DNA of 64,000 bases from Mesostigma viride (lineage: Eukaryota; Streptophyta; Mesostigmatophyceae; Mesostigmatales; Mesostigmataceae). The notes beneath the pieces are model-generated. The model was given only the letters and a program-made list of their open reading frames with translations, had not been told where the DNA came from and did no database searches. A program made the position numbers and the translations under genes. Shown in pieces: positions 1 through 49,583 of this stretch. Positions within the stretch are counted from its first letter, which is position 1, and each line of letters begins with the position of its first letter. Where the stretch lies: assembly GCA_009746045.1 (NCBI GenBank), contig RPFO01000595.1, forward strand, positions 1,361,123 to 1,425,122, read 5' to 3'.

Positions 1-3000
1 CCGGCACCTGCAGGCTCCACTTGCGCAGCGCCTGCTTGACGGTCTGCACCAATCTCTCAGCCAAACCATTGGCCTGAGGATGCTCCCGAGAAGTGCGACG
101 GTGATCAATAAGACATCCATCCAGCAACTCCTGGAACTCACCCCTGAACTCACCACCCTGGTCCGTGACTACCTCCGCGGGAGCCCCAAACCTGGTGATG
201 ATGTCTGCAAAATGCTTCGCTGTGGTAGCGGCATGCTTGTCAGCAATGGGGATCAACTCAACCCATTTGCTAAAGCTCTCCACGCATACCATGACATAGA
301 GGTTGCCGTCAGGGCTCTCCTGAAACGGCCCGCACAGATCGACGTGCCAGCGATAAAACAAGCCCTTGATGGGAAGCGACATCAGCTCCTTGGCACCATG
401 ATCTGCGCTAAAGTTAGCCTTGGTTCGAGCACACGGGACACAGCTGGCCACTACCTGGGCCACTGTGTGTCGCATGTTATTCCACCAATAGCTGGTCCGT
501 ACGAGGCTGAGCGTGCGATTGCCACCCAAGTGACCATACCGCTCGTGGTACGCCTGCACTATAGCAACGCGCTTGTCAGGCGGTGGGACGACCACCCTAC
601 GCTTGCCCAACAGCTTGTACAAAACCCCATCTTCCCAACCATAGGTTGCAGCCCTGTGCTGCACCCTGTTCAACTCCGTCGCCTTCTGAGCAGGAGTCCA
701 ATCGACTGGAGTAGGAGTCAAGACAGCACCCTGCACTTGCTCCAAAACTCGACCATCTAGCCAGATATCAGCGGTGTAGCAATCAGCAAGAGAGCTACGC
801 GCTAAGAGAGCCTGCACAGCGATCAGCTGCTGCAGAGAAGGATCAATGTCAAAGGACAGAGACCTACCCTCTTCCATAGCGCACACAGCTTTGGATGGCG
901 TGAATGGCGACGGCCGCACCGGGTCGTCGCTGATGCCGAAGTCCGCCACAGAGTACTCGACACTGCGCCACCACGCCTCCTCCTCATCGTCGGCCGCATA
1001 CCCAGCAGCGTTCACAAAGACCACAGAACCCGACGAGCCCTCGGCACCCATGGCCCGGGCTCCAGTGTGGTCAACAGTGGTAGGCATGGCGTATCGGGAT
1101 AGCACATCGGCGTTGACATGGTCCTTGCCGGCCCGATGCACAATGGTCATGTGGTACTCCTGGATAATCATGGCCCATCGGGCGAGCTTACCCGTCAGGT
1201 TGGTGTTGGTCATTAGCCACTGAAGCGGCTGGTGGTCTGTCACCAGAGTAAACACGCGCCCAACTAAATACGGGCGAAAGTGCTTGATGGCCCACACCAC
1301 AGCCAGTGCCTCCCCCTCATAGGAAGAATACCGGCTCTCCGCTGGGTTGTTGCTGCGACTAGCATAAGCAATAACGTGCTCGCGCCCATCACCATCCTTT
1401 TGCGCCAAGACCGCACCCAGTCCTACCTTGGACCAGTCGGTATATAACACAAACGGCAAAGCATAGTCAGGGGCGCGCAGAATCGGGGCCGACGTGAGCT
1501 CCTGCTTGATTGTCTCGATGGCGCGTTGCTGTGCGGGACCCCACGCCCACACGCACCCCTTCTTGAGTAACTCGGTCAAGGGCTTCACCTTGCTGCTGAA
1601 GTTCTCAATGTAACCTCGGTAATAGCCAGCCAAACCCAAATACGCCCGCACCCCTGAGACATCCGTGGGTACGGCGGCCTGCACAATGGATTCGACCTTG
1701 GCGGCATCAGGCGTCCGGCCACCCGGCACAATCTGATGACCAAGGAATGAGAGGGTCCGCTGGGCGAACTTGCACTTCTCAGGGTGCAGCCGCATATTAT
1801 GCTCCTCGAGAGCCAAGCGAACCTGCTCCAAGTGCGCCAGGTGCTCCTCAAATGTCGCGCTAAAGACGATTACATCATCAATGTAACAAGCGGCGAAAGG
1901 AAGACCTGCAAGCACTTTGTCCATAGCTCGTTGGAAAACAGCACTAGCGTTGCGGTGCCCAAAGGGCATGCGCACCCACTCATACAAATTGCCGCCCCCC
2001 CAGAATGCAAGCTTCCGCTGATCCTCCGGCGCAACTGCGATCTGATGAAAGCCGCTACGCAGGTCCAGCGAGGACACAAACTTCACATGAGGAGATATCT
2101 TATCCAGGACATCATCCACACGTGGCATGGGGTAACGGTCCACGGGTGTGTGTGCATTCAGCAACCGCAGATCGGTGGCCATGCGCATACCCGTCCATGC
2201 CCCGGTGATAGCGTCCTTCTTGGGCGCAACGACAACGGCAGCGGCATAGCTGGAGGAAGATTGCCTGATGATACCGGCATCCTCTAACTCCTTGCATTGC
2301 TCGGCTACAAAATCCAACTCGGCCTGACTCAGGCGATGCTGGCGTCGGAACAAAGGGGTGTCAGTGTCCAATGGAACACGCATGGTCCCACCATTGAAAC
2401 ACCCCAGTTCATCACTTGTGAAAGCGAAGGCCCCCCTTGCAGTGCCTAGCCACTTTAGCATGGCTGAGCGCTGCGCATCAGAAAGGTGTTCGCCAATAGC
2501 CCAGGGGTGCGTATCCGCGGGATCACCCACAGCTACCGCATGTGCCTCAAGATGCGGCGCCCTAGCCGCATCGTCGTGGAACAAGGAAAAGGCTGCCACG
2601 CCTGGTGTGACACCCACCGCCGGAGCCTCGCGTGCCGCACGGTGTATTACCCGATGCAGCGTGGGCTCGCCGGCCAGCACGGTGCTGGTCAGCAGGGCGG
2701 TCATGAGAATGATAGTCCACACCTGTCGCAGACGCCACCCCCATGCTGATGAAGTCCCCGTCGCTGCAGGGCGCTTCAGTTTGGCTGCGCGCGCCTCAAC
2801 CTGCTGAGGCGGATTGGCTGGGGACGCCCCCCCAGACTGGCGCACGGCAACCGATGCAAGCAGCACATACCCGACCTGCAACACCGACATAGCCTGGCCT
2901 ATCAAAGACCAGCGCTCACTCTCGAGCACGCCCGGCAGCGCCGAGGCCCCGACATGAAAACCCATGCTGGCCTCACGAAATTCTGCGGGTGGCTGCACCA

Positions 3001-5415
3001 ACAGACCGGTGGTAGTGTCCCAAACGAGACCCTTACCCCGATCACGGTATGCTGTCGACCCTTGGTAACTGACCAGGGTCGGCAGTGCACACATGGGGCT
3101 CCCGACCCGGTTGACGCGTGCATACGGTGGGCGATCCTCGCTATCCACCTTCTGCGTGACTAGGTGGGAAGGCAATGCTACCTCCGCAGACACACTCGGA
3201 TGCTGCCTTGCTACGGCCCCCAAGACCGCCTGCACATCGGTCGCACACGCCACGTTGGTCCAATAGGCACGCAAACGATGCGTGAGCCCACCCAGCCCTG
3301 CGTTGTCACACACGATGGGCTCCCCCAGGAGTGCCACGATTGTAGCCCAGTCCTCCCGCACCGCCTGATGTGGGCTGTCACCCGCCACAACGTTCTCAAA
3401 CAGATACGCAGGCGGATGGGGCTGACGCGACTGCAACAGTCCCACCACACGCAACAGTTCCCAGAACAGCGCGCTACGCGGATCGGCTAGCCCCCGCCCT
3501 TGCCCTGCCTGGCTCAGGCCCTGGCACTCCCAACCCGCAATTACCAAGTCGATGGCATGATGCCTGCGCAACAACTGCTGCACCTGCACCTCACCGATGG
3601 CTCGGATATCTTGAGGACATTCCCCAAACGGGTCACGCCATGCTGATGGCGGAAACTGCGCGGGATACTCTCGCGACAACACGCCACAGTGACTGAAGTA
3701 CACCTGACGCGCCTTGTGCGATGGCTCTACCGCGATGAGTTTACGGCACACGCCGCCTGCGGCCAAAAAGCCTGCAATGCCCCCTCCGATCCCCGCAAAC
3801 AGTTCCAACACTACCGCACCCTTGGCAAAATCAGGGGCCTGCGGTAAGATTGCAGCAGAAAAATTACCTTGGGCCTCCGAGACACCCGGTTGCAGCAAAG
3901 TGAGGCCATGGCTGGCCATCTGAGGAATGGTGATGACGGCTTCAGTTACCCGCTTGCGCATAGCCAGCTGCCGCGTGGACGTCACAGCATCCAGCGACCA
4001 CTGCGTGCGCATCTTGGCAATGCTCGCCGTTGGCTGGGGCAGCACCGTCCGATGCTTGTCCCACGCCGATGAGCCCGCCGCCCGTACCTCCACCATGCTG
4101 ACCTCCACCACGCCCGCAGCCGCGGAAGGGTTGAGGCGTGCAGCCCCGGCTGAAGAACTGAAGCATGAGACCGGCACGCTGGCCCGCTTCAGGCCAGCCC
4201 CATCCCAATCAGGGATGTAAGATGCCTCCTCCGCCCTATAGTCCACCTGAACCATGGCGCGAGCAAGGACATCCACCCCGAGTAGTGCGGAATATCCACA
4301 CTTGTTGACCACCAGCGCATACGCGGACACGGTGGTCATGCTAGAGGCGCGCAACGGATTGAAAATCACGTTGACTTTAACCGCCGTCATAGCGTACGGC
4401 TTACTAGCCGGACCCTGCCAACCTGACACAGACACGGGGCTTTCCACTAAGCCACCGTTCTCGTAGGTCAGGTTCAGCATGGTGGCCAAGTCCGTGCTGA
4501 TGACTAGCGGCTGAGCACCGCTATCAAGCTTGACTGCGCCAACCAACGGACATGTCACCATGTCGCTCCATACATCTCCACAGGCTCCAACTGCTTGGAA
4601 CGCCATGGACGGCTCACCATTGGGGTATGGAACCACCGTGGGAACCTGGGGGACTGCACTAGTGCGCTGCTGGCTACTTGTGCTGACCACTCCCGCTTGC
4701 ACCACGGGCACTGCGGCTTCTACCGGCTGGCGCCCGTAGGTGACGGACTCAGAATTGCGCAAGGTGCGCACATCATGCCCATCTGCGAACAACTGGATCT
4801 CGGACACAACCGACCCCAGCCACTCAACCCCCTTCTGCCCGAAGGTGTCGACCACCTGCCGTGCTGAAAACATGGGTACGTCCACAATGAACGGCATTGG
4901 GTACACAGGCGCCAATCGCCTACGCTGCTCCAGCCCAGCAGGGTTCGCATGCTCAAAAGCAGATTGCACCCCAGCCAGCGGCATGGAAAAGGACGCGGGC
5001 AACTGCCCGGCAGGCAACATGGGTGCCTGCTGAAAAGAAAGCGGGCTGCGTGCCTGCTTGCCTTTGGTAGCCTCCGCAGCGTTGATCTCGACGTCACCCG
5101 GCATGGGCGCCCAGAATGGGTCCTCCCGGTACACCGTCTCGAATTGGTTGGGGGGCGCCGTCGCCTCCTCACCATGCTTGATGGCAGCCACCTGGGCTTC
5201 CATCGAGTCGGTCTTGCCCGCCATCTCGGCGAAGTGGACCGTCTTGATGCCCGCGGCTGGACACTTGTTCATCAGGTGCCACTTCGTGTCTGCCCCATGC
5301 GGCTTCGTGCAGCGGCTTGGACACTCGCGACTAAGGTGCCCATCCTTGTCGCAAAGGAAGCAGCCCGATTTGCGCGCATCCGTCCTAGTACCCGTCTGTG
5401 AGGACGTGCCCCCCC
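1..5415 (-). CDS. pol: G1 Pol: zinc knuckle, protease, C5-methyltransferase, RT, RNase H, integrase (partial)
   Basis: About 1,800 codons to the left window edge, with no stop in the parts I translated. In order: a CCHC knuckle at 5321-5362 (CFLCDKDGHLSREC); retropepsin with catalytic DSGA at 4514-4525 and LLGVD at 4271-4285; a cytosine methyltransferase at about 2850-3815; RT from about 2400 with the YIDDV active site at 1871-1885; RNase H near 1150-1500 (LYTDWSKVGLGAVL, VTDHQPLQWLM, ADVLSR); then integrase with an HHCC zinc finger (HERYGHLGG ... CVPC) and a DDE core: Asp in WHVDLCGPF, Asp in VVTDQGGEF, Glu in ANGLAERL. The integrase C-terminus is outside the window, so a chromodomain cannot be checked. 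Known roles: maturation, reverse transcription and integration of the element. The methyltransferase is an addition to the standard set. Confidence 0.9.
2850..3815 (-). other. Cytosine-5 DNA methyltransferase domain inside G1 pol
   Basis: The core motifs of C5-cytosine methyltransferases occur in the right order and spacing. Motif I (SAM binding) is VLELFAGIGG at 3782-3811. Motif IV, with the catalytic Cys, is GWECQGLS from 3535 (Cys codon 3524-3526). DPRSALFWELLR follows. Motif VI is ENV at 3389-3397. A motif VIII-like HRLRAYWTN lies at 3254-3280. A motif IX-like ALPTLVSY is near 3070. PPAEFREASMGF and the motif X-like LIGQAM at 2888-2905 close the domain. It sits between protease and RT in one continuous frame, so it would be made as part of the polyprotein. 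One departure: motif IV has Glu where Pro is usual (ECQ for PCQ). Methylation of the element's own DNA or of the target site is inference. Confidence 0.88.
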
Positions 5416-7080
5416 AGCTCGCGTCGGGGCGGCAGCGTCTTTGTTGCCGCCAGCGGCGTTACCCTGGGTTGCATCATGCGATGAGGCGTTGCGAGACCCC
5501 CCTTGGTTCCTGCTAGCACCGTGGCCGCCTTGCGGGCGCGCTTGTCTTGTGGCAGACGACTCACCCGACTTGGCCTTGGTCAGCGCGTCGACCTTGGCCT
5601 GCAGCTCGGCCACCACCGTGCTTACCGAGATCCGGCCTTGCGCGTGTCGTCGCATCATGGCCCTGACCTCAATGCACAGTGACCGCAATCGCCACGGCTG
5701 GCCGTTGGGCGGCGTGGGCAGCTCCATCTCCTTGGAGCCTAGCGCTTGCAGCCATTTCTGACACGCCAGCTTTTCGGACCAGTCCTCCACTTCGCCGGCG
5801 AACTCCATGAGGCGCTCGTAAGATTGCTCCGGGGTTTCACCCTCGGCTATCTTGAAACTGCGCCACTCACGCTCTGCCTTGATGGTCTCCACCGGGTATT
5901 CCTGGCGAAGGAGGCCCCACAGTTCCTCGGCAGGGTCGACACCATACATGATGTTGTCATAGTCGGGCTGGCCACGCCCGTCGAAGCCGAACCACACGTC
6001 CGTGTGACGCGTGTACAGCGAGACCTCTCTCCACTGCTCCACCAGCCTAGCCACTCGCCTCAGCGTAAGGCCGTGAAAGAAAAAATGCATGTTGTTCATC
6101 ACAAACTCATGCATTACAGCGCCTTGCGTAGTCATGTATTGCAGATCAATCCATGACTTGTACGCGTTGTAGGCCTGCGCCAGCGTGGCCAGATTGCCGG
6201 TTGTGGAGAACTTCTCGCGCATGTCCACCCGTGGTAGGGTGGGCATCTTCGCGCCTTCCGGTATGAGGCGCACCCTTTGCGGGTACTGCACCCCATCGGC
6301 ATCCTCCGGCGGTCGCTGAGCTGCGCGTCCCTGCGCCAGCGTGCTTGGTCGTGCTGCCTCCCGTACTCGGAAAGCCAGCGGCGTGGTTATGTCCTCCATG
6401 GGCGGAATGCGCCCGATTGGCACACTTGACCACCGTGCAGTCGACCCGCCGGTCAGCGCCCCACCGCCTCGCCCAAACGGAATTGAGGCCCCGCCTGGCA
6501 GCATGCGTCCTGGTGCACCCCTGTGTGGGTCCATCGCGCGCGCCAGCCCTGCCCCGTTCTCCTCGTGCAATCCGTCTCGCGCTTGATCGAAAGGCAGGCG
6601 CCTGGGCGCCAGCGTATACTCGCCCCGTGGCTGACCATCCGCCTCACCAAGCAAGTCGTGTTGGGTTAGCGACCCAGCCAAAACCCCCGGTTCCATCGAA
6701 GCCCTTCCCGCCGCATTACCTGAGGTTGGCGGCTGGTCCCGCTCCCTCGGCTCCGCGGCAACACCACTGGGGCCCGGCATCGATGCCTGCCCGTCCCATG
6801 GTGTGGACTGCAGATGACGACCCTCTACGGCCACCAATCTGTCGGTCACTTCCCGCATCTGCAGCGCCAATTGCTGCTGCAACTGTTGCGACTGTTGCTG
6901 CATCTGCGCTTGCATCTGCGCGAACAGCGCCACCATACTCAGCGGCGCTTCTTGGTCGCGACTCTCACCCACTGCGGGTACGGCGGGAGGAATCCCGCCA
7001 TTCGACCCCGGAGCGGACGTGTCGGCATCTGCTCTATTTGCATCTGCCATGGCTCGAGTCTGCGCTCGCGTCAGTGGCAT
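5272..7080 (-). CDS. gag: G1 Gag polyprotein
   Basis: This is an open frame of about 600 residues. The start is taken at the ATG at 7080 (MPLTRAQTRAMADAN); a second ATG 10 codons later is equally possible. The N-terminal third is Gln-rich with a short coiled-coil-like stretch (runs such as QMQQQSQQLQQQL). The middle third has the hydrophobic, helix-rich pattern of retrotransposon capsids, including WRSFKIAEGETPEQSYERLM. The tail is basic and Gly/Ala-rich. The CCHC knuckle expected at the Gag C-terminus is not in this frame; it appears one frame away, downstream of a seven-base homopolymer at 5409-5415. Residues encoded below about 5400 in this frame are therefore probably not the true C-terminus. 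Gag would package the element RNA in virus-like particles. Confidence 0.85.
   Translation of the reverse strand: MPLTRAQTRAMADANRADADTSAPGSNGGIPPAVPAVGESRDQEAPLSMVALFAQMQAQMQQQSQQLQQQLALQMREVTDRLVAVEGRHLQSTPWDGQASMPGPSGVAAEPRERDQPPTSGNAAGRASMEPGVLAGSLTQHDLLGEADGQPRGEYTLAPRRLPFDQARDGLHEENGAGLARAMDPHRGAPGRMLPGGASIPFGRGGGALTGGSTARWSSVPIGRIPPMEDITTPLAFRVREAARPSTLAQGRAAQRPPEDADGVQYPQRVRLIPEGAKMPTLPRVDMREKFSTTGNLATLAQAYNAYKSWIDLQYMTTQGAVMHEFVMNNMHFFFHGLTLRRVARLVEQWREVSLYTRHTDVWFGFDGRGQPDYDNIMYGVDPAEELWGLLRQEYPVETIKAEREWRSFKIAEGETPEQSYERLMEFAGEVEDWSEKLACQKWLQALGSKEMELPTPPNGQPWRLRSLCIEVRAMMRRHAQGRISVSTVVAELQAKVDALTKAKSGESSATRQARPQGGHGASRNQGGSRNASSHDATQGNAAGGNKDAAAPTRAGGARPHRRVLGRMRANRAASFATRMGTLVASVQAAARSRMGQTRSGT
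5409..5415 (-). other. gag-pol frame junction at a G7 homopolymer (G1)
   Basis: On the coding strand this is seven consecutive G. Upstream the gag frame is open; immediately downstream the frame one base back (-1) carries the zinc knuckle and all of pol. The phase (GCT GGG GGG GCA) does not form a canonical X XXY YYZ slippery heptamer. Either slippage on the G run produces Gag-Pol, or this copy or the assembly has lost one G. Confidence 0.6.
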
Positions 7081-8799
7081 GCACCAGCTGACCGATGGGC
7101 AAAACAAGAACCAACAAGCCTAGGTTTCGCTGAGAAGAAGCAACAACCAAAGGCTTTATAACAGGTGTCAAGGATAACGACTCGACTAGCCTGCCAGAAA
7201 AAGACAAGAGCCAGCAAATTCTGGCTAGTTCTATTTTCTTAAAATCTGTCTCAAGACACTTCCTTTACAAACTGTCAGCCAGGCCGTTCCCTGTACTGCT
7301 GATGGTTGCTAAACACTAAAGCCAACGTCTTGGCTTCGAACAGAAGGAAGCAGACTACCGGGTAGTCTCTTCGAGTAAAGAAAGGAGGGCTCTCAGCCGA
7401 GGACAAGGAACTGTCCCTCGTGCCTGATAACCACCTTATTGCCTCCCCTGCTATAGAATAATGCTTTCAAACACACACTTTGCACAGTCTGATGATGAAG
7501 CCGCACATGCGGAATTTATTGAGAAAGTTAATACAATTACAACACGTTGATAGTCTCAATATCGATGCACTCCATGCTCACGAGCCCGCAGTTAGGCAGC
7601 GCTCCATGACATGCTACCGGCCTTGCTCCCAAGGAAAGGGAGAAACACGAAGGCCACTAACGAGAGACTCGAAGAGACTACACGCTGCGTGAGAGTCCTC
7701 TTCGACTATGAACCAAACCATTCGTCATGCCACACGCATGACACACGCCACACTTGTCAGTCCAGCCAGGAATGCCAAAACTATCTTGCTGCCTGAACCA
7801 TGCGAATAGAAACCGCATTCCAGTTGCCGTCCTGGCTTTCTACCACACATGCCAACAAAAGCAGGAAGGCATCCCGACAAATCTAAATTGCTACCCTGTT
7901 GCCGATCTCATCTCCTAGAGGCTCCGGCATTTCTGTCCCTGGGAATGTCCGACATTGAGTCACGTCCAGCAAGGTCGAAGCATAATATCCTTCAGACAAT
8001 CTGCACGCTCACACCTTGCGTGTGAGTGGCCCAGCAAACATTGCGTCTAATCGTTCCTTTCTAGAAGAAATCCCTTTTTAGGGCTGCCAGCGATTTCGCA
8101 TTCATTCCAGCGATCTGGCTCCGCACCGCAAATTGTCCTTTTCCATTTTCTGTCCAGTCCTCATAACGTTGACCCGCTATTCTACACCACAAAGACACCT
8201 GGCCTGTCAATAGCCTCGGCGCTGTTGAAGTCCAGCAGTACAGCTTCAGCTCCAGCTGTCCACTAACACGCGTATGATCCTCTCGACGCTGCACACTTGT
8301 GCTGCCGTCCGCTCAAGTCAGTGCTGCGCGCCCAGCTGTGCCTGGCCCGGCGCGCGTGCACGTACACTTTCGTCCGCTCTTATGCTGCAAGTGCTAGTGT
8401 CCCCCCCCGGTCACTAGCCTTTGTCGAAAATGCGTAGAAGACAAATTCCTTGCGCACGTCACCGGTCTTGTGCATAGTGGGCGCCCGGATGACATAGCGC
8501 GCGTCCGTGACATTGGTACTTTGGTCAAACAACCCACCGGGGACATCCAAGCTGAAGCAAGGCCTGGTCTCTATGGCCGCCCGATTGTCATGAGGCAACT
8601 GACATCCGGATTAGTGCCCCTTGGTCTGAGAGAGTCGTCAACACCCGTTTCATTAATCATCAAACCAAAGAGAGAGAGTCCATCGTCCTCAGACCAATTT
8701 CACCTAGCTGCGCTACCAAGCTGGCAAGTTGGTGTGCAGGCGCGCCGACATGCGCGCCGATCTTCCAGATACTGCCGTCAAGCCCCAATAGGTTCTGTA
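7081..8799. other. Non-coding interval upstream of G1 gag
   Basis: I see no credible coding region here on either strand. By position it should hold the G1 leader and 5' LTR (minus strand), but I found neither a second LTR copy nor a primer site beginning TGG that would fix the boundary. An AT-richer stretch lies at about 7200-7560. The remainder is unremarkable unique-looking sequence. Confidence 0.5.
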
Positions 8800-11495: not shown

Positions 11496-12112
11496 AGTTG
11501 TGAGGGTAAGAATGCCACGAATTCCGCCATGGTTCTTGCAGGAAGTTGCCTTTATTAACAATCAGGAAACACAGACGTAAGTCACGTCACTTCCAAGACT
11601 GCACGCAGCACAGACGACAGGGTCGCAGTGCCAAGAGAACGTGCACGCAAGAACTAGCGTCCCGGTGTGACCAAGTCACTCATATAGCTTACTAGGGACG
11701 CGTCCAAGTATTCAGCTGCACTGTCACAGCTGAACTGTCAATCAATTGATTACACAGACTCTGGCACGCCTTTGGCGCGCAGATCTATCAATTGTCCATA
11801 CGGCTAGTCCTGTGGACCTATCCGTACACTGCTCAGCATCAATTGTCTCATAGGTCCTGGCGCGCTACAGTGCGCCTACCTATCAATTGACCATCAAGTC
11901 CTGTACAAGTCCTGTCAACGTCCTGCGGACTATCAAAGTGACACTTGTACATCCTGTGTCCGTACGCGCCCACAGTGGCGCGCCGGGTACTGTCGGCACA
12001 GCCTAGGAAACGTCATAACTTTTACGTTCCTTAACCAAATGAGGCGTTCAAGGTGCCGTTGGAAAGAGCGTAACAATCTCTATCCATCTAACGTAAATCC
12101 TTTACGTTAACT
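11496..12112 (-). repeat. K-A 3' LTR (617 bp)
   Basis: Near-identical to 18707-19323. Ends are AGTT and AACT. On the element strand it begins AGTTAACGTAAAGG directly after a polypurine tract, which confirms that AGTT, not TG, is the true terminus. Confidence 0.9.
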
Positions 12113-12134
12113 CCAATCCCTTCTTTTCTTTAGG
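12113..12134 (-). other. Polypurine tract of K-A
   Basis: The coding strand is CCTAAAGAAAAGAAGGG followed by ATTGG and then the LTR start AGTTAACG. K-B has an equivalent tract in the same place. Confidence 0.75.
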
Positions 12135-13059
12135 GTCACATCCCCTGCCAGGGACCCTTGAAGTAGCTTGAAATGTCCTTCACTCCAGCTTGAAGCTTGA
12201 ACAGATGTCTTTAATGGCCATTGCCATTCCCCCAGCCCTTTCTTTTAAGGAACTGGAAAAGAAACAGATCTGCCACAGGGAAAACCATTTCATGAGAAAT
12301 GGAGAAAACCTATGGAAGTGGCATTACAGAGTACCACCAGATATTAGAAGCACACAAAATTAAATACATACAGGTTAATTCTATGAGGTCTTCTCCAGGA
12401 ATTAATCCCATCACCTCGGTAGAGCCTCCAGTACAATGACCTTCTGGCGGTGAGTTACATTAATCCCAGATACTAATCCCATAAAACCCAGTACATATTC
12501 AATATAAGTACAATAAATCCATGACAATTAAAATACCACTTGACAAAGTAAGGCGTATTACAATAGTTTGCCTGTCATTCTCTCAACAGGGGTCTATTGG
12601 CGCCCGTCTTACGGCGCCCGTCTACTTGCCAGATGGTAAACTGCCACAGCAAACAAATGACAAAATGAAACACATAGGCAACAATTAAATCCTGCCCTGG
12701 GGAACTAGGGAAGTCTGAACAGGCAAACACCTGAACAGGCCAGCTTGTAGAAACATAATACCAGGGAATCGAACCCCGCCCTATAAACCCCAGAATAAAG
12801 GTTCCCAGACCATTGTGAGAGTATGTACAAATATACATTTCTTTTAAAATAGAATACATGGTCTGTAATGGACCTGTCAACCTTGTGTAGTCAACAGCAT
12901 GAACCCCAGCCAAAACCTGGCTGTATCCTGATTAAAATCAGAGTGAGTGTACCATGGTCCATGAGCCTTAGTACAGACTAAAATACAGGTATTATGCCAG
13001 TCACAATGCTGACACTACCACACAATCTGCTCTCCAATGCCCTATAACCATGCACCAGC
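12135..13059 (-). other. K-A 3' non-coding region
   Basis: About 925 bp between the RNase H stop and the polypurine tract. No convincing reading frame on either strand. It holds the T-arm-like hairpin at 12761-12787. K-B has a comparable long 3' region. Confidence 0.65.
12761..12787 (-). ncRNA. tRNA T-arm/B-box-like hairpin in the K-A 3' region
   Basis: On the element strand: a five-base stem CGGGG, loop TTCGATT, stem CCCTG, containing GGTTCGATTCC, the pol III B-box/T-arm consensus. A 26-27-base segment around it is shared with K-B (22725-22751) although the flanks differ. No complete tRNA can be folded around it. It may be a tRNA mimic in the 3' UTR or a captured tRNA remnant. Confidence 0.55.
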
Positions 13060-16000
13060 TTAGACAGCTTGCTGAGATGGGTCCATCAGAGACTGAAGAA
13101 CCTTGTATTGCACTGCTGCCTTCTGCACTAGCTTGGTCAAAGCATCAGCAGGATTGTCAACCCCAGGGATATGCTCAATATTGGCCAAGGAGGACAACTC
13201 CTTAAGAAGGAGATAATCCAAGTCCCTACTTCTGGCCATCTGCCTGTGCACAAACTGCACCATCCCCATGGAGTCTGTTTTTAGAAGAGTGGTAACCTGA
13301 AGTGGCCAAGGAGTGTTAGAAGTCATCTGATGAAGCAACTCCTTCAGATAAAGGCTTGTGTGAATGCCTTCACAAATAGCCCTGCATTCTGCCACATCAC
13401 TGCTGACAGCCACCCGTTTGTGCAGGCGACTAAACCAGCTCACCAAACTCCCCAGGCCTTCCTGTCTGAGCACAAAGAGCCCTGCAGCCCTGCCCCTGAC
13501 CTTGGAGACCTGCCTGCTGTCCATTGAGCTATCCACATACAGCTCCATGCAAATGGGTTGTGATAAATCCACTGCAGACAACAGAATGCCAGATGAAGCC
13601 CTGACCTGATCAGCCACCTTGGCAGACCCTAGCTCCACCAGCATGTCATCAGGCAACCTGGCTATGACCATAAGGTCTGGCCTGGAAATGCCTGCCACCC
13701 AAGCAACCATGCCCCTCACCATGGGACACAGTGCCTGTGTGATGGTTGGAGGAAGCTTGCTAATGAGGGTCTCTTGATAGTCATTGCCCCCCACCAGCAG
13801 CATACGCCACTCCCCCCCTTCTTCACCAGTGTGGCCTCCATGCCCACAAACAGCAGAGGCTCATTCTCCACCTGCCATTGCTCCCTACCCAGAGGAAACT
13901 TGGACTTAATGATGGAGATCAGCTCCTTAAGCCACGACGTGGGAGCTATCAGATGTAGGTCATCCCCGTGCAGCGAAGCATACACTGGCAGGCCTTCCCA
14001 TTGCCCCAGAAACAGACAGGGGTCTACAGGAGAGACCTTCAAGTTGCAATGCTCCTTCAGGAAACGGTTGAGAGTCTCCCTCCAGATTATTGGACTTGAC
14101 CTCAGGCCCTCCAGGCCCTTGAGGATTTTAAGGAACTCCGTGTGGATGTCCCTTTTCCATACAGCAGGCACCCTAACATAGAAAGGCGTCTTGCCCTCCC
14201 ACTTTTCCTGTGCCACATCTGCATCACCCTCCAGAAATGCCCTCTTGAAGTCTATCACCACTGAGCCATAGTCCAAGCCCTTGTTGAGAAGGCCTAGAAA
14301 GACACACAGCAGCAGCCTCCAAGTATCATGCAGCATGCCAGGGGTATACAACTCCTCAGCAGTGCACTCACCAGTACCCTTGAACTCATTCAGCACTGGC
14401 CTGACATGTGGTACCTTGACCCCGTCCACCTCCTTCATCTTGATGACAAACTTGAGCTTGAGTAGACGTCGTGCAGGAGGCAGGTCATTGACAGGTTCCA
14501 CGCATTTCTTGGAGATCCAGTCCTCCCCAGATTTAATCAGACCCAGTGTGACCTGGGGACACATAATGGGAGAGGACATGAGCTTCACCAGGCCTTGGTA
14601 GTTGATAGGGCTGTGTCCAGCAAGTGAGTGAGGACCAATGCCCAAACTGCTTGGATGACTAGCAGCTGGCAGTATGAGGTCATCAACCAAGGGCTCCTGC
14701 CCCTGGCACACTTGCACACGCTTAACCGTCCTGGTTACTGCACGTGATAGGTGAGTGGTCCTGAAATTAATCAGTGGGACCTGACCAGCCCCTTCCTTAG
14801 TCAGGAGAGAGGACGTGATCACTACCCCATCCTGGCATAGGAAATTCTGCCCCAGAAGAGCAGGTCCTTGATAGCCCTCCAAGACACAAAAAGCAGTGTC
14901 CTGTCCAAGGATAGGAATGAATACCTCACCCAGTACCTTCACGTGTACCCCGCCACTGAAGTCAGACACAAACTGATAGCTGGGTTCAGACATGCTGTAC
15001 CCTGCTGCAGCCCTGGTCCCAATAATGGAGACCTGAGAATTAGTGTCTACCTCTAAGGCAGTGTCCAGCCCCAGATTGCCATGCCACCTGAGCTTGGCTA
15101 CCTTGGGCTGCTTCTTGGCCCTTTGTAGAGCCCCAATCAATCCAGCCAAACTTGTCCCCCTGGGCTTGGTTAGTGCCTTGGGCTTGACAGTTGACTCCCC
15201 AGCTGTTGACCTTGCAGCCTGTTCAACAAGTACCTCTGCAACCTGGCCAGGGCTGACAGATTCCCCTGCAACAGATGTGGTCGTTGCGTCAGTGATGTCA
15301 CCTGGGACCTGAAAATCCTGCAGATCCTGTGAGCCTTGTGCCTGACTGCCCTCATTCATCAGGTTAGGCTTGACATATGACCAACTCAGCCGGTGTACAT
15401 GCTTTGGTTCGTCCTCCATGCTGACCAAGCATGCGTGGCTAGCTTCATCAACCTGGGTAACCACCCCAGGACTCCAGCTACCACGTTTGCCATAAAGGCT
15501 AGGTTCCTTCCAAGCTAGGACCTTCTGACCCACTTGTGGCTCCAGCATCTTCCAACCCCGGTCCTTCTCCCTCAGCTTGGCAAAGGTGACATGTGCAGCA
15601 TGTTTCCAGCCCTCCAGCACATGTGGTGGGCACAGGCCATGATATAGACCCATTGGGCTGACAGCAACTCCATCATAGTAGAAGTTAACCCTGCTGTTCA
15701 GCTGCTGCTCCACGTTCCTCAGCCATGCACTCCTGACAAGTGCAGGTGCAGACAAGGGTACCCAGTCTTCAGAGATGATCAATTTCTTGACCTCCTGGAT
15801 TGCCCTCTCGATAGCACCCTGCTGCCCATGAGCCTCCCTAGGTGTAACCAGCAACTCAGGAAGGGTAGGATCACCCTTGAGATGCTGAAACTGCATGTCC
15901 ACCTGGATCCTTGTGGTAGGAAACTTGGCTCTTACATTCTGCAGGGCAGCCAGCAAGTACCTGTTCTTCATAGAAGGTAAATGCTCCAGCACCTTGTATT

Positions 16001-16544
16001 TCGTGTACCTGTCCACGCACACCAACAGTTGCATGCCCCTGATGTGTTGGATATCACACTGCAGATCACCAATGCTCTGAGGTAGAGCTTTGGCATGTGA
16101 TTTCCTGGGCTTGTTGGAGGACAACTGGCACTTACACCGTGAGGCAGCTTGCTGACACGCCTTAAGAAGGGGTGCCCTGCCCATACGGAAGGCAAAGTTG
16201 TTTGACAGAGAAGTGGCATGCCCAAACATGTTGTGGATTCGGGCACCCAACTCCTGGTACACAGAGGAAGCAGTCCCTGGCACAGTCAGGACTGTGCTGT
16301 CAGGTTGTCCAGCATCACCATGCTGACTTCCATCCTGTTCTGACTCAGAGCCTGAGTCACCCTGCTCATGCCCAACACCTGGACCGCCAGCAGGGACCAC
16401 ATGCATACCACCAGAGGCCTTCACACCCCTCTGTGGTTGTACATTGGTTTCTCTCAAAATGAGAGGTCCACCCTCGTGCCCAGCACGAGGATGCATAGGG
16501 TCAGACATACTTACAGCTGCATCAGCTGTCAAGGACGTCTTCAT
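13060..16544 (-). CDS. pol: K-A Pol: integrase, protease, reverse transcriptase, RNase H
   Basis: Starts at ATG 16544 (MKTSLTADAAV). After an acidic, Gly-rich leader comes integrase: a zinc-finger-like IHNMFGH ... CKC; first Asp in LQCDIQHI with VDRYTKYKVLEHL; second Asp in IQVDMQF; Glu in GQQGAIERAIQEVK; then the C-terminal GSWSPGVVTQV. The retropepsin follows the integrase: EVDTNSQVSIIG with DTN at 15039-15047, and ALLGQNFL. RT has DFKRAFLEGD and the active site YASLHGDDLHL (HGDD at 13959-13970). RNase H has YVDSSMD, SDVAECRAI, KTDSMGMV and NPADALTK. One frameshift lies at the six-base homopolymer 13812-13817, between RT and RNase H. RT and RNase H are plainly copia-like, while the IN-before-PR order, HGDD and DTN are atypical and are shared with K-B. 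Confidence 0.88.
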
Positions 16545-16685
16545 AGGAACCTGTACCTCTCCAGGTGACCTGGGGCCACACTGAACCTGGAGATCACCCT
16601 CTTGTTGCCCAGATATAAAATCTGCATTGGAGCACCTGGCCTCCCCCTTGGGTGAATTAAGGTGTGTAGGGGTTGCCTCAGACAG

Positions 16686-17802
16686 TCACTGCTCCTTGTT
16701 GTCTTCTTGCTGACTGCCCTTTGAAGGCTGGCCTGCCTGGGACTTGTTGTTGTTCTTCTTGTTGTTGTTGTTGTTATTCTTGTTGCTGCCCTGGCCCTGG
16801 GACTTCTTGAAGCTGGGACACTCCTTCTTGATGTGCCCCCACCCCTTGCACAGGTAGCATTGTATCTTGGACTTGCCCTGGCCACTGCCCCCATTGTCAG
16901 ACGCGTTGCCCTGCTTGGGCTGACCACCCACCCGCCTGAACACCGACTTGGAGTGTGACCTCCTGTCAGAATCAGGTGAATGATCTCCCTTGCGCTTGTG
17001 ATGGTTGCCCCTACGCCCTCCTTGGCTTCGGTCAGCCTCAGACGTCTTGGAGCCACCCTGGGTACGCCCGCCTGCCTGGGTAGCCTTCACTGCTGGCACT
17101 CCACCCTCAAACAGCTCCTCTGCCTCGAGTGCTTGTTTGATGATGACCTTGTAGGCCTTCAGGGTAGAGTGTGGGGCACACATGACTTTTAAGGAGCCAC
17201 GTGTCGCCTTATCCAGCCCAGAAACCTTGAGCCAGTTGGTTAGGGCTATGTTATCAGCGACATTAAAGCCGTGAGCCCTGCCCTCCTCAACCATCTTACA
17301 ATAGTTGAGAAAGTTCTGGATCAGGTCCCCCTTGACCTCCCACCCTTGGTACTTGTCCTGCCAATGGATGCCACTTCTTCCTCTGATCCTCCAGCAGCTC
17401 CTTCAGCTCAGCCACGTACAGTGCCCAGGCCTTATTGGCCTTTTTGCACTCCCTGGTTAGGTCCTTAATCTGGTCAGTACACTTGCCAAAAGTGCTACTG
17501 CCTATCCAGATTTGATAGTAATTTGTACCACCGTACAAGCTAGGGAACCCTTCCAATCCCTCCACAAACTCTTCAGCCTGCTTAGGCTTGGAGTCTGAGG
17601 TTACAGGCTGCAACTGATTGACAATTAAAAGACCCTGTGTGGTAAGATCAAAGCCATGAATAGCTTGTGCATTATTATTATTGTGAGGAAGGTTGGTAAT
17701 CTCTCCGGTAAGCCCCACGTCATCTACGTGAGCGGTTCCACTACCAGCACCCCCATTATTATTCCCACTGGCTGGACCCTTGCTACGGCGTCCCTCAGCC
17801 AT
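16686..17802 (-). CDS. gag: K-A Gag with CCHC zinc knuckle
   Basis: Starts at ATG 17802 (MAEGRRSKGPASGNNN). The first frame (17296-17802) and the second (16686-17294) join across a one-base shift near 17370; the second frame is open upstream of its first Met and continues the same protein (...NFLNYCKMVEEGRAHGF). The central region is helix-rich and matches K-B Gag and K-C Gag in pattern. The knuckle is CYLCKGWGHIKKEC near 16820-16870, followed by an Asn-run tail. Nucleocapsid function: binding and packaging genomic RNA. Its stop at 16686 precedes the pol ATG by about 140 bases, so pol is a separate frame with an unknown expression route. Confidence 0.8.
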
Positions 17803-17971
17803 CCTGCACTACCAGCTATTCAAAGAACACCTTAACGAAGCAGCAGAAAATATGTACAAAATTTTTGTGTCGCCTCTGCCGCCTGCGCCGGTGTCGCTGC
17901 CGCCCCCGCGAATTGCCGCCGAAATTCGACAAAAAAATGTCGACAAGTACTGCAGAAGAAAATTAGGCCGA

Positions 17972-18682
17972 CTAGTAGTCAAGGCCCCTGAAGTCGCAGT
18001 ACGTGTATACGAACTCACGATCCTCCATATCCAGCTCCGGACCTGCACCGGTATGAATTAAAACCGGCGTGCTCCCCGCCGCGTAAGTTGCGACGCGCCG
18101 ACGCGCGACGAGGCGCAGAGGATGTGTAAAGATCGTCAATAATTCCCACCCCGCGGGAATCCACTCTCGCACAGAGGCGAGAAATGCCACCAGGTTAATT
18201 AAAACCTGGCGCTCGCGACTGCGTACGCCGCGAGTGAGCAGCGATAACAGCGCGAGATCCTGAAACAAATTTGTCGACACCGCCGGCGCGCCCCCCGTGC
18301 GTAGCGATGCCCAGTTTTGCAGGTTTCTCTGGTAACCGGTGAGTGAAGAGAGGACGTTGTCCAACTCCTCAATGGCAGTCGTGACTTCGGTCACCGACCG
18401 CAAACCTCCCCGCACCTGGACCGTAAATGTCGATAAAATGTTTCGAATCTGGTCCAACAGGTTGCGGATTGCCGGCACCAGTGCTGGCAAATCGGGGTCC
18501 TCGGGGTTATCCCCGAGCAATGCGTGAGCTGCACGCTGCTGACGATGAAGCTCGTCGAGCGAGACCGTTACTTCGTCGAGCAATTGCTGCCACGACGGCA
18601 CCGTCGGTCTTGACGAAGAACCAGCCGGCGGAGCGGCTATTTCCTCATCGTCCGGAATCCGAAATTCTTCCGAATTTGGCAT
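17972..18682 (-). CDS. K-A ORF1, extra protein upstream of gag
   Basis: 236 codons from ATG 18682 (MPNSEEFRIPDDEE), only 24 bases from the LTR. It is an acidic, helix-rich protein with long predicted coiled-coil-like stretches (DEVTVSLDELHRQQRAAHALL, IRNLLDQIRNILSTF, TTAIEELDNVLSSL). A more hydrophobic C-terminal part follows (RQVLINLVAFLASVREWIPAGW). I recognise no family. K-B and K-C have an ORF in the same place; similarity is in organisation and helical character rather than obvious identity. Canonical copia elements have no gene here. Confidence 0.65.
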   Translation of the reverse strand: MPNSEEFRIPDDEEIAAPPAGSSSRPTVPSWQQLLDEVTVSLDELHRQQRAAHALLGDNPEDPDLPALVPAIRNLLDQIRNILSTFTVQVRGGLRSVTEVTTAIEELDNVLSSLTGYQRNLQNWASLRTGGAPAVSTNLFQDLALLSLLTRGVRSRERQVLINLVAFLASVREWIPAGWELLTIFTHPLRLVARRRVATYAAGSTPVLIHTGAGPELDMEDREFVYTYCDFRGLDY

Positions 18683-18688
18683 CTTTTT

Positions 18689-18706
18689 GACAGAGCGTGT
18701 AATACG
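18689..18706 (-). other. Putative primer-binding region of K-A (not TGG-type)
   Basis: The bases right after the 5' LTR on the element strand are CGTATTACACGCTCTGTC. K-B has CGAATTACAAGCGAG and K-C CGTATTATTGTC at the same position, so CGWATTA is conserved. It does not begin with TGG, so priming from the CCA end of a tRNA is unlikely; an internal or cleaved tRNA primer is possible. Confidence 0.45.
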
Positions 18707-19323
18707 AGTTGTGAGGGTAAGAATGCCACGAATTCCGCCATGGTTCTTGCAGGAAGTTGCCTTTATTAACAATCAGGAAACACAGACGTAAGTCACGTCA
18801 CTTCCAAGACTGCACGCAGCACAGACGACAGGGTCGCAGTGCCAAGAGAACGTGCACGCAAGAACTAGCGTCCCGGTGTGACCAAGTCACTCATATAGCT
18901 TACTAGGGACGCGTCCAAGTATTCAGCTGCACTGTCACAGCTGAACTGTCAATCAATTGATTACACAGACTCTGGCACGCCTTTGGCGCGCAGATCTATC
19001 AATTGTCCATACGGCTAGTCCTGTGGACCTATCCGTACACTAGTCAGCATCAATTGTCTCATAGGTCCTGGCGCGCTACAGTGCGCCTACCTATCAATTG
19101 ACCATCAAGTCCTGTACAAGTCCTGTCAACGTCCTGCGGACTATCAAAGTGACACTTGTACATCCTGTGTCCGTACGCGCCCACAGTGGCGCGCCGGGTA
19201 CTGTCGGCACAGCCTAGGAAACGTCATAACTTTTACGTTCCTTAACCAAATGAGGCGTTCAAGGTGCCGTTGGAAAGAGCGTAACAATCTCTATCCATCT
19301 AACGTAAATCCTTTACGTTAACT
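18707..19323 (-). repeat. K-A 5' LTR (617 bp)
   Basis: Second copy of the 11496-12112 repeat; visible differences are two adjacent-region substitutions near 19043 (CACTAG versus CACTGC). It should carry the promoter for K-A transcription toward lower coordinates. Confidence 0.9.
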
Positions 19324-19328: not shown

Positions 19329-19527
19329 GGCGCATGGTCTCTTGCACTGTGCGGTTCAGCCTCTCCACCAGGTGGGAGGACGAGCTGTGATATGCTGTCC
19401 CCAGCGACACCTTGGTGCCCAGGCATTCAAAGAACTCCTGCCAGAAGCGGGCCGTGAACAGCTTGTCTCGGTCCGATATGAATTGCCGGCTGAGTCCGGC
19501 CGTGGTACCTGAACACGTGGTTAAGGT
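19329..19527 (-). pseudogene. pol: G2 integrase catalytic-core fragment between P and K-A
   Basis: The minus strand reads YLNHVFRYHG, then after a one-base shift near 19499 GLSRQFISDRDKLFTARFWQ, and later GTAYHSSSHLVERLNRTVQETMRHY. These carry the second Asp (ISDRD) and the Glu (LVERLN) of the DDE triad and align with G3 (38330-38540). The fragment lies between the palindromic element and K-A; removing both restores continuity with 20415-21567 and 10678-11495. Confidence 0.8.
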
Positions 19528-19532
19528 ATAGC
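19528..19532. repeat. Target-site duplication of palindromic element P, left copy (ATAGC)
   Basis: ATAGC here and at 20415-20419. The G2 integrase text continues across (…CAKL / YLNHVF) when P and one copy are removed. Confidence 0.85.
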
Positions 19533-19738
19533 AGTTACGTTAAATAGTGACGGAACCTTTTGCCGCCTGAGGCAAATCGGTCCGTAACACTATTTTGCCC
19601 GGAATAACCACTTCCGAGCACCCAAGTTAATTCGGCCGAATTAACTTGGGTGCTCGGAAGTGGTTATTCCGGGCAAAATAGTGTTACGGACCGATTTGCC
19701 TCAGGCGGCAAAAGGTTCCGTCACTATTTAACGTAACT
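19533..19738. repeat. P unit U1, 206-bp palindrome
   Basis: Two 103-base arms meet at TTCGGCCGAA. The arms match at the diagnostic sites checked (GTGACGG, CCGTAACAC, TTTTGCCC in both). Confidence 0.85.
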
Positions 19739-19870
19739 AAAACCTGGCCTCGTGGAGGGGGGACGAAGAGCCCGAGACATCCGCCTAGGCCGCTGAGCAC
19801 GCACCACTAAATGCGCCGGAGCTGCCTCAGTGAGGATTCGAACCCCTGACCTCCAAGGTGCACGGGTTTT
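19739..19870 (-). repeat. P spacer S with T-arm-like sequence
   Basis: 132 bp bounded by AAAACC and GGTTTT. On the minus strand it carries GGTTCGAATCC, a T-arm/B-box match, near 19830-19850. No complete cloverleaf fits within the spacer. Confidence 0.7.
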
Positions 19871-20076
19871 AGTTACGTTAAATAGTGACGGAACCTTTTG
19901 CCGCCTGAGGCAAATCGGTCCGGAACACTATTTTGCCCGGAATAACCACTTCCGAGCACCCAAGTTAATTCGGCCGAATTAACTTGGGTGCTCGGAAGTG
20001 GTTATTCCGGGTAAAATAGTGTGACGGACCGATTTGCCTCAGGCGGCAAAAGGTTCCGGCACTATTTAACGTAACT
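19871..20076. repeat. P unit U2, 206-bp palindrome with mixed arms
   Basis: The left arm is of the U1 type (GTGACGG, TTTTGCCC), the right arm of the U3 type (GTGCCGG, TTTTACCC, read in the same orientation). The type switch falls at the centre of the whole element. Confidence 0.85.
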
Positions 20077-20208
20077 AAAACCCGTGCACCTTGGAGGTCA
20101 GGGGTTCGAATCCTCACTGAGGCAGCTCCGGCGCATTTAGTGGTGCGTGCTCAGCGGCCTAGGCGGATGTCTCGGGCTCTTCGTCCCCCCTCCACGAGGC
20201 CAGGTTTT
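20077..20208 (+). repeat. P spacer S', inverse of S, with T-arm-like sequence
   Basis: Reverse complement of 19739-19870. GGTTCGAATCC lies on the plus strand near 20102-20112, followed by CTGAGGCA, the complement of TGCCTCAG in the U arms. Confidence 0.7.
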
Positions 20209-20414
20209 AGTTACGTTAAATAGTGCCGGAACCTTTTGCCGCCTGAGGCAAATCGGTCCGTCACACTATTTTACCCGGAATAACCACTTCCGAGCACCCA
20301 AGTTAATTCGGCCGAATTAACTTGGGTGCTCGGAAGTGGTTATTCCGGGTAAAATAGTGTGACGGACCGATTTGCCTCAGGCGGCAAAAGGTTCCGGCAC
20401 TATTTAACGTAACT
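20209..20414. repeat. P unit U3, 206-bp palindrome
   Basis: Arms match each other and differ from U1 at several shared sites (GTGCCGG for GTGACGG, TTTTACCC for TTTTGCCC). Confidence 0.85.
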
Positions 20415-20419
20415 ATAGC
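20415..20419. repeat. Target-site duplication of P, right copy (ATAGC)
   Basis: Matches 19528-19532. Confidence 0.85.
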
Positions 20420-21567: not shown

Positions 21568-22197
21568 AGTTAACGAAACTGTCGGGCTGAACTGTGGTTC
21601 AGCCTGCACTGATTAATATCTACAGAGGAAGTAGTTATATTAATCAATAGGTTTACGTTGCTGGTTATGGCTACCAGCACAGAATGCACGAGGCACGTGA
21701 GAACCGTCGCCAAAGGTGCGAGGACACAGGTGCAGGGAAAGTGGTGCTACCAAGTGGCAGCGTCCTGCTCGTTATATACTAATTGTGACGCAGTCACATC
21801 CAGATGACTGATAGGACAGATCATCTCACAATATTGCTGTCCTTCACTCTGGTCCAGCAGATCTCGACTCGTTATCCATAAATAGTCACATCAGTGTCCT
21901 GTCGCACAAGTCCTGTCACTATTTGTTACGTCTAATCAATAGCATTGAATAGACCGCAGTGTCGGAGACTACATGTCCTATCGCACACTGTGACAAGACG
22001 TCGTATGCCACGCGTCACTTGAAGAACCACCGTAGAATCACCGAATCCAAGTAGAATGTAGTAGAACAGTATCTTGCTCATATCTCGAGCAATACTCATC
22101 AGAATGAACCCGTTTCTGGATTGTAGTAACCGGAAGTAGAATCTCTACAAGCCAAGTAGCTTAGTAGAATAATATTGCTTGCCAGGCAATATTAACT
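21568..22197 (-). repeat. K-B 3' LTR (630 bp)
   Basis: Near-identical to 28388-29015. On the element strand it starts AGTTAATATTGCC after a polypurine tract and ends CGTTAACT. Confidence 0.9.
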
Positions 22198-22219
22198 CCA
22201 GCCCTTTCTTCTCTTTTAG
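22198..22219 (-). other. Polypurine tract of K-B, with a partial duplicate at about 22236-22270
   Basis: The coding strand AAAAGAGAAGAAAGGGCTGG abuts the LTR start AGTTAA. About 45 bases further in, the LTR end plus tract is partly repeated (AAAGAAAGAAAGGGCTGG then AGTTAATATGG), a local tandem duplication. Confidence 0.7.
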
Positions 22220-22973
22220 AGCTTGGACGTAACAGCCATATTAACTCCAGCCCTTTCTTTCTTTTAGAGCTGTTAGGCTTGGCAACACATATATAGAAAC
22301 AACATGCATAGCACTTGACATCCCTCCCAGCTCTCTGTAGTCTCTGCTCGGGATTAATCAAGCACCAGATCACAACACATCTCAGCCATGACGAATTACA
22401 ATGAATTCCCTATCCACTGGAAGTAGAAAGCCAAGTGTTTGGAATAGCAGCTTGTGGCTAACCAGAATAATGACCAAAATGGAATCATCACCATAATGGC
22501 TCCTGATTGGAACCCCACAAGTTACCCACAAGACCTTATCAGGTAGACATTGATAGTTATCAGAACTGGCGCCCACCATGGACTGAGAAATAGCACATCA
22601 CAAAATATATTAAGCACATGACAAACTACCTTCCTCTGTCTGGGACAAAACTAGGGGGACCTGTCGCCACCTCACCAGCAAGGTTGATGGGTCAGCCAAT
22701 CCGGGAAAATCCGCCTAAGCAGCCCCAGGGAATCGAACCCTGCCCTATAAAATCCCTTTGGTTGAGACAAACCTCAAACTGAGGACAAACCCCCAACCAA
22801 CATCATGCTCCATGACTGAGCATTACATAGAATACAGTATTATACACATATGTACACAGAGCATTACTGCCCTCAGAGCATCACAGCTCTCAGCATAACA
22901 GAGCCCAGCTCTATGTTAGCTCTTCTCACCCAATCAGTCACCAAACTCAAAGCTCCAACTGGAATTGCTCAAC
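22220..22973 (-). other. K-B 3' non-coding region
   Basis: About 750 bp with no convincing gene. Contains the conserved T-arm-like hairpin at 22725-22751. Confidence 0.6.
22725..22751 (-). ncRNA. tRNA T-arm/B-box-like hairpin in the K-B 3' region
   Basis: On the element strand the stem CAGGG, loop TTCGATT and stem CCCTG pair fully. The same segment occurs in K-A at 12761-12787 with one stem base changed so that pairing is kept as G-U. No complete tRNA surrounds it. Confidence 0.6.
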
Positions 22974-25900: not shown

Positions 25901-26409
25901 CCCACCAACAAAATCAGTTTCCTGATTTCTTGGATATCACATTGTACATATCCAGGCTGCAACACAGGTTGTCTGACATGAGACTTCTTAGGCTTGGGAG
26001 CAACCAGCCTACAGGAACAAGCCTCAGCAACCTGCTTTACTGCATTAAACAAAGATGTCCCTCCCAGCCTCCTTGCAAACTGGAGTGCCTGGGCAGCATG
26101 ACCAAACATATGATGCAATCTCAATGCAATGTTTGACACAAGAGACATTTTATTAAATACAGGTGAGGTGCTTGGAACAGCACTCTCTCTTACAACCAAG
26201 CTCCCCATTGCATCATTCAGGCCATCAGCCTCATCCTCCTCCTCTAAAGGAGCTTCCTGCCCTAAGGCAGGACTTCCACGCTCCAACATTGAAGGAGTAC
26301 GCAAACTACCTCCAAGAGCCATGTGGGAACGTTGTTGCCTTGTGGTAACTGCTTTCACCATGGTGACGTGGGAAGACCCAGTCACTACCCCATTGTGTTC
26401 TTCCTCCAT
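22974..26409 (-). CDS. pol: K-B Pol: integrase, protease, reverse transcriptase, RNase H (frameshifted)
   Basis: Starts at ATG 26409 (MEEEHNGVVTG). Integrase: LHHMFGH ... CSC; Asp in VQCDIQEI with VDRYTKYKVLELL; Asp in LQCDLEF; Glu in GSQGVVERTIREL; C-terminal GSWHPGVVTRV. The protease follows, EVDTNAEVS with DTN at 24940-24948, then IILGQNFL after a frame change near 24900. RT: KLRFVIKRKEV, LLDFKRAFLKGD, YASLHGDDLHL with HGDD at 23861-23872. RNase H: IYVDSSMD, SDVSECRAI, then after a one-base shift near 23190 LSDNMGMVQ and NPADALTK. Two frameshifts make this copy inactive as read, unless they are assembly errors. Domain order and active-site variants are the same as in K-A. Confidence 0.85.
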
Positions 26410-49578: not shown

Positions 49579-49583
49579 TCTTC

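Follow-up and report, generated by a model that had tools for sequence, protein, structure and literature searches.

We analyzed a 64,000-nucleotide stretch of the Mesostigma viride genome (the window; positions 1361123-1425122 of contig C1923, in an assembly of 439,911,974 bases and 2243 contigs), the left end of which carries a Ty3/gypsy-type retrotransposon with a C5 cytosine methyltransferase (MTase) domain inside its pol frame. A preliminary description of the letters had placed this domain at 2850-3815, between protease and reverse transcriptase (RT). We found that the placement holds, as does the order of the MTase motifs in one open pol frame, but on the minus strand; a plus-strand reading of 2850-3815 was ruled out, its frames containing 9, 9, and 3 stops. 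The motif numbers and the names of the protease motifs below follow customary usage.

5272..7107, minus strand: gag open reading frame (ORF), 611 amino acids, without a Pfam match
2..5458, minus strand: pol ORF, 1819 residues, stop-free to the window edge; in the same contig the ORF runs on to about window position -763
5318..5362, minus strand: CCHC zinc knuckle CFLCDKDGHLSRECP in the pol frame; PF00098 E 0.0016, 18.9 bits, below the cut-off of 20.8
4271..4528, minus strand: retropepsin-like protease, from LDSGA (pol residue 311) to LLGVD; by motifs only, no Pfam match
2849..3814, minus strand: C5 cytosine MTase domain (DNMT3-like), pol residues 549-870
3779-3808, minus strand: MTase motif I, LELFAGIGGG, pol residue 551
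3521-3535, minus strand: MTase motif IV, GWECQ, pol residue 642
3389-3400, minus strand: MTase motif VI, FENV, pol residue 687
3263-3280, minus strand: MTase VIII-like motif, HRLRAY, pol residue 727
2885-2905, minus strand: MTase X-like motif, LIGQAMS, pol residue 852
2672..2728, minus strand: hydrophobic segment between MTase and RT, RQVWTIILMTALLTSTVLA in the window and RQVWSVILMTALLTSCVFS in a second family of elements described below
1730..2224, minus strand: RT, PF00078 (RVT_1) E 2e-27, pol residues 1079-1243
1154..1468, minus strand: RNase H, PF17917 E 2.1e-38
77..586, minus strand: integrase, with an H2C2 zinc domain (416-586, PF17921 E 1e-16) and a DDE core (77-355, PF00665 (rve) E 2.2e-10)

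The pol frame lies in the -1 frame relative to gag, as worked out by hand from the coordinates, and is 2074 amino acids long in two near-identical copies on contigs C111 and C133. Beyond the window, in the adjoining stretch, the frame ends with a PHD finger (PF00628 E 2e-9), whose closest solved relative is BAZ2B (E 4.6e-16). The order protease, RT, RNase H, and DDE integrase is that of Ty3/gypsy elements, the protease being recognized by motif only and the class being read from domain order. A tyrosine recombinase was not seen: no recombinase family is among the Pfam matches of the scanned ORFs, and Pol ends with the DDE integrase and PHD finger. An Rfam scan of the window returned 0 matches.

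Our data indicate that the domain belongs to the C5-MTase family. The profile search that had been proposed for this region matched the DNA_methylase family PF00145 above its cut-off (pol ORF, E 7.6e-11, 42.4 bits against a Pfam cut-off of 22), and motifs I, IV, VI, VIII, and X follow in order. TIGR00675 also matched the MTase with an E value of 6.7e-12, but its 45.7 bits fall below the curated NCBIfam cut-off of 100.65. The predicted fold aligns to DNMT3A across residues 1-326. With a profile built from the MTase domains of the two families, the best fit among solved structures was DNMT3A (6.1e-6), and the top rows of a Foldseek search with the predicted model were DNMT3A/B, while HhaI tied with DNMT3 by structural Z (18.4 versus 18.9) and a single-sequence search gave 4onj as the best solved structure.

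We asked whether the MTase derives from an enzyme of the phage or giant-virus type and not from a eukaryotic DNMT3. Relatives of this kind are plentiful: 246 phage records match, as do, among the matches listed, at least 519 of 600 pattern-matched viral stretches, and in a tree the retrotransposon pair lies next to a cluster made up of phage enzymes and DNMT3A. However, the branch of the pair has a length of 5.8 and its letter composition is unusual, which leaves its placement unsure, and DNMT3A was the best fit among solved structures. We regard a viral derivation as an unlikely origin, albeit one of some weight.

We next consider whether the domain is specific to this copy. A genome-wide listing contained at least 127 PF00145 matches (123 of 415 candidates were scored, and the list does not include the copy in the window), which were assigned to families by profile range and score. 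Of the 127 listed, 58 belong to two types of retrotransposon, with 28 plus 9 in the second family and 21 in the family of the window element. The assignment was checked by sequence at eight loci, five of the second family (L037-L039, L074, and L075, the last broken by frame shifts) and three of the window family (L040, L041, and L047). The window element is matched at 99.97% over 9,001 bases by the copy on C111 and at 99.93% over 9,801 bases by that on C133, and its two A repeats, A1 and A2, are 99.65% identical (4 aligned differences, one of them at the junction). Given these near-identical copies and repeats, the window element is a recent insertion. The preliminary description had named absence of the domain from other copies as the outcome that would make this a one-off capture; further copies do carry it, as does the second family. 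Its recurrence across contigs and in a diverged family refutes a one-off capture, a contig chimera, or another assembly artefact, all of which are exceedingly improbable.

The second family is well separated from the first. A blastn comparison of three of its loci with the window element found nothing at an E value of 1e-10, and MTase identity between the families is 64%. The domain order is the same, with gag and protease in one ORF and MTase, RT, RNase H, integrase, and PHD finger in another, the PHD finger having been identified by reading the sequence. We calculated nonsynonymous and synonymous divergence (dN and dS; Nei-Gojobori, one copy per family) across 320 MTase codons, over which identity is 67%, and found dN 0.27, dS 2.65, and a ratio of 0.10. 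Between-family identity is 81% for RT, 88% for RNase H, and 75% for integrase, with dS saturated for all three. Three other stretches, each at 50% identity, gave ratios of 0.32 (protease), below 0.16 (linker following the MTase), and 0.14 (spacer following RNase H). By identity, the MTase is held more tightly than the protease and spacers and more loosely than RT; the ratios are rough. Searches for relatives by DNA pattern, using MTase and RT-integrase patterns on viral contigs and also covering genome contigs, yielded none that was confirmed.

Two further observations concern these families and the MTases of this genome. The hydrophobic segment between MTase and RT (RQVWTIILMTALLTS, 2672-2728, minus strand) is membrane-like and conserved in both families, which is odd for a pol polyprotein. 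Separately, loci L006-L035 hold full-length bacterial-type C5-MTases (HIDLFAG.GGF...FPCQ), including groups of 10 and 16 equal-scoring matches. These lie mostly on contigs of 20-110 kb, some in megabase contigs, with similar neighboring ORFs in the nine loci read; our guess is a virus-like or Polinton-like DNA element family with its own MTase.

We turn to whether the retrotransposon MTase is catalytic. The catalytic cysteine, ENV, and the R.R residues are retained in both families at 64% overall identity, and a dN/dS near 0.10 is as for an enzyme in use. Several observations weigh on the other side. Motif IV reads ECQ instead of PCQ or PCN in both families, so that cysteine and glutamine are kept and proline is replaced by glutamate, and PC stands at this position in all 66 viral relatives that passed the filter (80 loci examined). 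The PF00145 alignment covers the front part of the profile only (positions 3-111 of 324), and motifs VIII-X therefore rest on alignment with the second family and viral enzymes and on the predicted fold, for which the mean predicted local distance difference test score is 64.9 and mostly below 50 in the target-recognition region (approximately residues 207-272). The MTase dS of 2.65 is nearly saturated and comes from one copy per family, and the ratio of the spacer following RNase H, 0.14, is close to 0.10. CpG observed/expected is 0.86 in the part of the element within the window, no sign of long-lasting CpG methylation, though the element is young; CpG transitions number 0-4 per copy in eight repeat copies, too few to judge a scar of host methylation. 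In yeast, the gypsy DNMT of Klebsormidium nitens produced no methylation, a result its authors call inconclusive (main text of PMC5890265).

DNA methylation by this MTase is a tentative reading: ECQ in place of PCQ lowers our claim of activity, while the fold and family match stand. An MTase retained for something other than DNA methylation, being weak or dead and serving as a structural element, binding DNA or RNA, or methylating RNA, would fit ECQ and the yeast result; the retained catalytic residues and the low dN/dS argue otherwise, and we consider it a minority possibility. Of the interpretation first offered, a C5-MTase in the protease-RT interval of a Klebsormidium-like gypsy pol was borne out, while the suggestion that it may mark cDNA or new insertions, perhaps limiting host damage, stays a conjecture.

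The ends of the element differ from those of a conventional long terminal repeat (LTR) element. Split repeats, self-primer, and PHD finger all fall beyond the coordinates of the preliminary description, and the PHD finger and the greater part of the repeats also beyond the window. The following features lie on the 5' side.

8513..8516, minus strand: 5' copy of the target-site duplication, CCAA; the other copy lies beyond B2, left of the window
7373..8512, minus strand: 5' repeat A1, 1140 bp, beginning TGTC at 8512; its partner A2 is at window -2077..-938
7667..7681, minus strand: self-primer stretch inside A1, a 15-nt exact complement of the primer-binding site
7515..7520, minus strand: AATAAA in A1, a possible polyadenylation signal, A position 993
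7362..7376, minus strand: primer-binding site ACTCGAAGAGACTAC, overlapping the end of A1 by four letters and continuing into the internal region

On the 3' side, the window element has a G-tract, four letters, repeat B (139 bp, ending GACA), GC, A, B again, and the flank, and both flanks share CCAA. A second-family copy on C2100 has the same layout (A 1127 bp, B 136 bp, duplication CTTG). We examined the ends of 17 copies: the window element, 14 of the 21 listed copies of its family, and two of the second family. A perfect 4-bp duplication was found in all eight copies that show both ends. Five of these have the form A-internal-B-A-B (window, CCAA; C113, GGTT; C158, GGAG; C47, ACAT; C2100, CTTG), and three have the form A-internal-B (C224:5360085, AACC; C1:13346576, ATTC; C224:1970885, CGCG), the form of C224:5360085 being deduced from the distance between B end and A start (9447 bases, as for window B1). 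Among the remainder, C58 has neither A nor B in the examined, incomplete stretch, C224:2935888, C2, C1:11959277, C202, C1:8922235, and C777 are without a usable end there, and C111 and C133 carry B ahead of A on the 5' side as well. Identical simple LTRs at both ends, as in Ty3/gypsy elements, were not found: the eight two-ended copies begin 5' with A and finish with B-A-B or a single B. A plain 1140-bp LTR was likewise ruled out, with B both before and after A on the 3' side in the window, C113, C158, C47, C1:8922235, C111, C2100, and C777.

The two junctions of the 3' repeats behave differently. Both families have GCGACA-GC-TGTC at the inner B-A junction, with CGCGACAGCTGTCGCG in the second family a 16-letter perfect palindrome, and inserted copies have the palindrome halves as their outer ends. 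The A2|B2 junction reads CTTTCTTTAATC before B in four of the six window-family copies in which it is visible (window, C47, C1:8922235, and C111), is one letter shorter in C158, and is altered in C113. In the second family, the copy on C777 retains TCCA of the primer site at this junction and that on C2100 does not. In addition, B-A repeats occur 5' as well as 3' of the MTase gypsy copies on C111 and C133 (L042-L045; contigs of approximately 40 kb), possibly as tandem arrays from concatemers or recombination.

The primer site is paired within the element itself. Its exact 15-nt reverse complement lies inside A at position 832 in the window family and 882 in the second family, upstream of AATAAA (A positions 993 and 1011), and none of 2000 random element stretches in either family equaled it. 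The second-family primer site is ATCCACACAGAGCTA; the arrangement is the same and the letters differ. Primer letters that differ between families while pairing is kept are what selection on pairing would leave. A candidate tRNA primer site, TGGTTATCAG in A, was set aside since it lies inside the repeat and the 15-nt self-complement was preferred; no tRNA search was made. In Tf1-type elements the primer site is complementary to the RNA 5' end, and both families, with their 15-nt complement, are candidate elements of this type. Tf1 and Tj1 have conventional LTRs and are not known to carry an MTase or PHD finger, unlike the window element. PAT, Ngaro, and DIRS elements have A1-internal-B1-A2-B2 repeats, as does the window element, but they encode a tyrosine recombinase and are not known to make a target duplication, while the window element has a DDE integrase and a duplication.

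The domain order, its conservation in two families, the young copies, the self-primer complementarity, the split repeats, and the 4-bp duplications are observed. Together they suggest that this is probably a recently active, self-priming Ty3/gypsy family with a DNMT3-like C5-MTase in the protease-RT interval and a PHD finger after integrase, with the following cycle. RNA would begin near the self-primer in A, fold back, and prime. Plus-strand synthesis would be expected from the G-tract at the start of B, and with this start the reverse transcript should bear B-A at each end. Joining of the two cDNA ends would produce the A2|B2 junction, with which the variation of that junction between copies, one with extra primer-site letters, is consistent. 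The DDE integrase would then open the circle at its B|A palindrome and insert it with a 4-bp duplication, a two-repeat circle giving A-internal-B-A-B and a one-repeat circle A-internal-B. More tentatively, newly made cDNA might be methylated, probably at CG, by the MTase carried in the particle as part of Pol, either ahead of integration or while it proceeds; the PHD finger might direct the complex to certain histone H3 tails.

A broader proposal is that the DDE integrase inserts circular cDNA by cutting GACA-GC-TGTC, that each insertion is a circular permutation of the transcript, that Pol's own MTase and PHD finger could mark the circle with 5-methylcytosine and choose its chromatin, and that split repeats of the DIRS kind would in that case reflect convergence on circle integration and would not be a hallmark of tyrosine recombinases. 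We put this forward as possible, with somewhat less than even confidence. Integration from circles was examined, then set aside, in retrovirology. The circle is deduced from inserted copies alone, nine of the 17 copies could not be judged for duplications, and three of the eight two-ended copies are A-internal-B, which could also result from later recombination between B1 and B2 that deleted A2-B2; these points count against the cycle as proposed. Inserted copies of this kind could also come from linear cDNA through odd strand transfer, concatemers, or template switching, since the latter two can yield repeat-repeat junctions as well, and C111 and C133 with B before A on the 5' side too look tandem-like. 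Outer ends that coincide with the inner palindrome halves, duplications in all eight two-ended copies, and an A2|B2 junction that differs among copies argue against a linear origin, which we judge improbable though not negligible.

The preliminary description had mentioned methyltransferase-carrying retrotransposons in Klebsormidium and dinoflagellates, and the kinship with the Klebsormidium element is supported by structure (DNMT in gypsy Pol, DIRS-like A-coding-B-A-B), the likeness being one of layout. The K. nitens genome is approximately 100 Mb, versus the 440 Mb assembly here. KnitGypsy-Dnmt3, of the charophyte K. nitens, carries DNMT3 in the Pol of an LTR Gypsy element (de Mendoza et al. 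2018, PMC5890265), with repeats as in DIRS and gypsy domains (Fig. 4 legend, PMC5890265). The main text reports purifying selection on the DNMT (Ka/Ks <0.2), discusses cDNA methylation, and finds that two SymbioDIRS DNMTs methylate CG in yeast (PMC5890265). By description only, KnitGypsy-Dnmt3 and the window element have in common a DNMT3-type enzyme in gypsy Pol, DIRS-like repeats, and purifying selection. SymbioDIRS-Dnmt3 of Symbiodinium (PMC5890265) is alike in having DNMT3 in Pol and A-coding-B-A-B repeats but has a tyrosine recombinase, while the window element has a DDE integrase and 4-bp target duplications. Fission yeast Tj1 likewise has a primer site complementary to part of the 5' LTR in the same RNA (PMC4600332). 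C5-MTases in retrotransposons are also treated in PMC6338049, which cites PMC5890265.

An MTase-bearing retrotransposon is thus a kind already published, and our reading of the ends goes further. In the main text of PMC5890265, figures excluded, PHD and protease are mentioned 0 times and target-site duplication once (for a long interspersed nuclear element); a term search of PMC3350952 gave 0 mentions of PHD. Beyond PMC5890265, no account of split repeats with a DDE integrase was found in the largely open literature searched, supplements and figures excluded, and self-priming, 4-bp duplications, a palindrome, or a PHD finger for such elements were not found in the literature searched, mostly at listing level. 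The self-primer, palindrome, and 4-bp duplications are features reported here beyond KnitGypsy-Dnmt3 as described in the text of PMC5890265.

A retroelement with its own DNA methyltransferase reverses the usual picture, in which the host methylates the element. With two diverged families and many copies, some near-identical, the reason for keeping the enzyme becomes testable. The ends predict how an element with a DDE integrase lives with split repeats, by self-priming and insertion from a circle; if true, circle insertion would uncouple split repeats from tyrosine recombinases.

The window contains other repeats. Two copia elements (11496-19323 and 21568-29015) have LTRs more than 99.5% identical and CpG observed/expected of 0.44 and 0.41, versus 0.86 for the MTase gypsy element; the value is 0.19 in a 4-kb block from 12000. 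An adjacent inverted repeat at 19527-20415 (441-nt arms, 98%, no spacer) contains three 213-nt direct copies. Finally, two direct-repeat copia copies lie at 48783-58439 (48783-53268 and 53955-58439; 4.5 kb at 99.8%), one with a full ORF and one with a shortened ORF.

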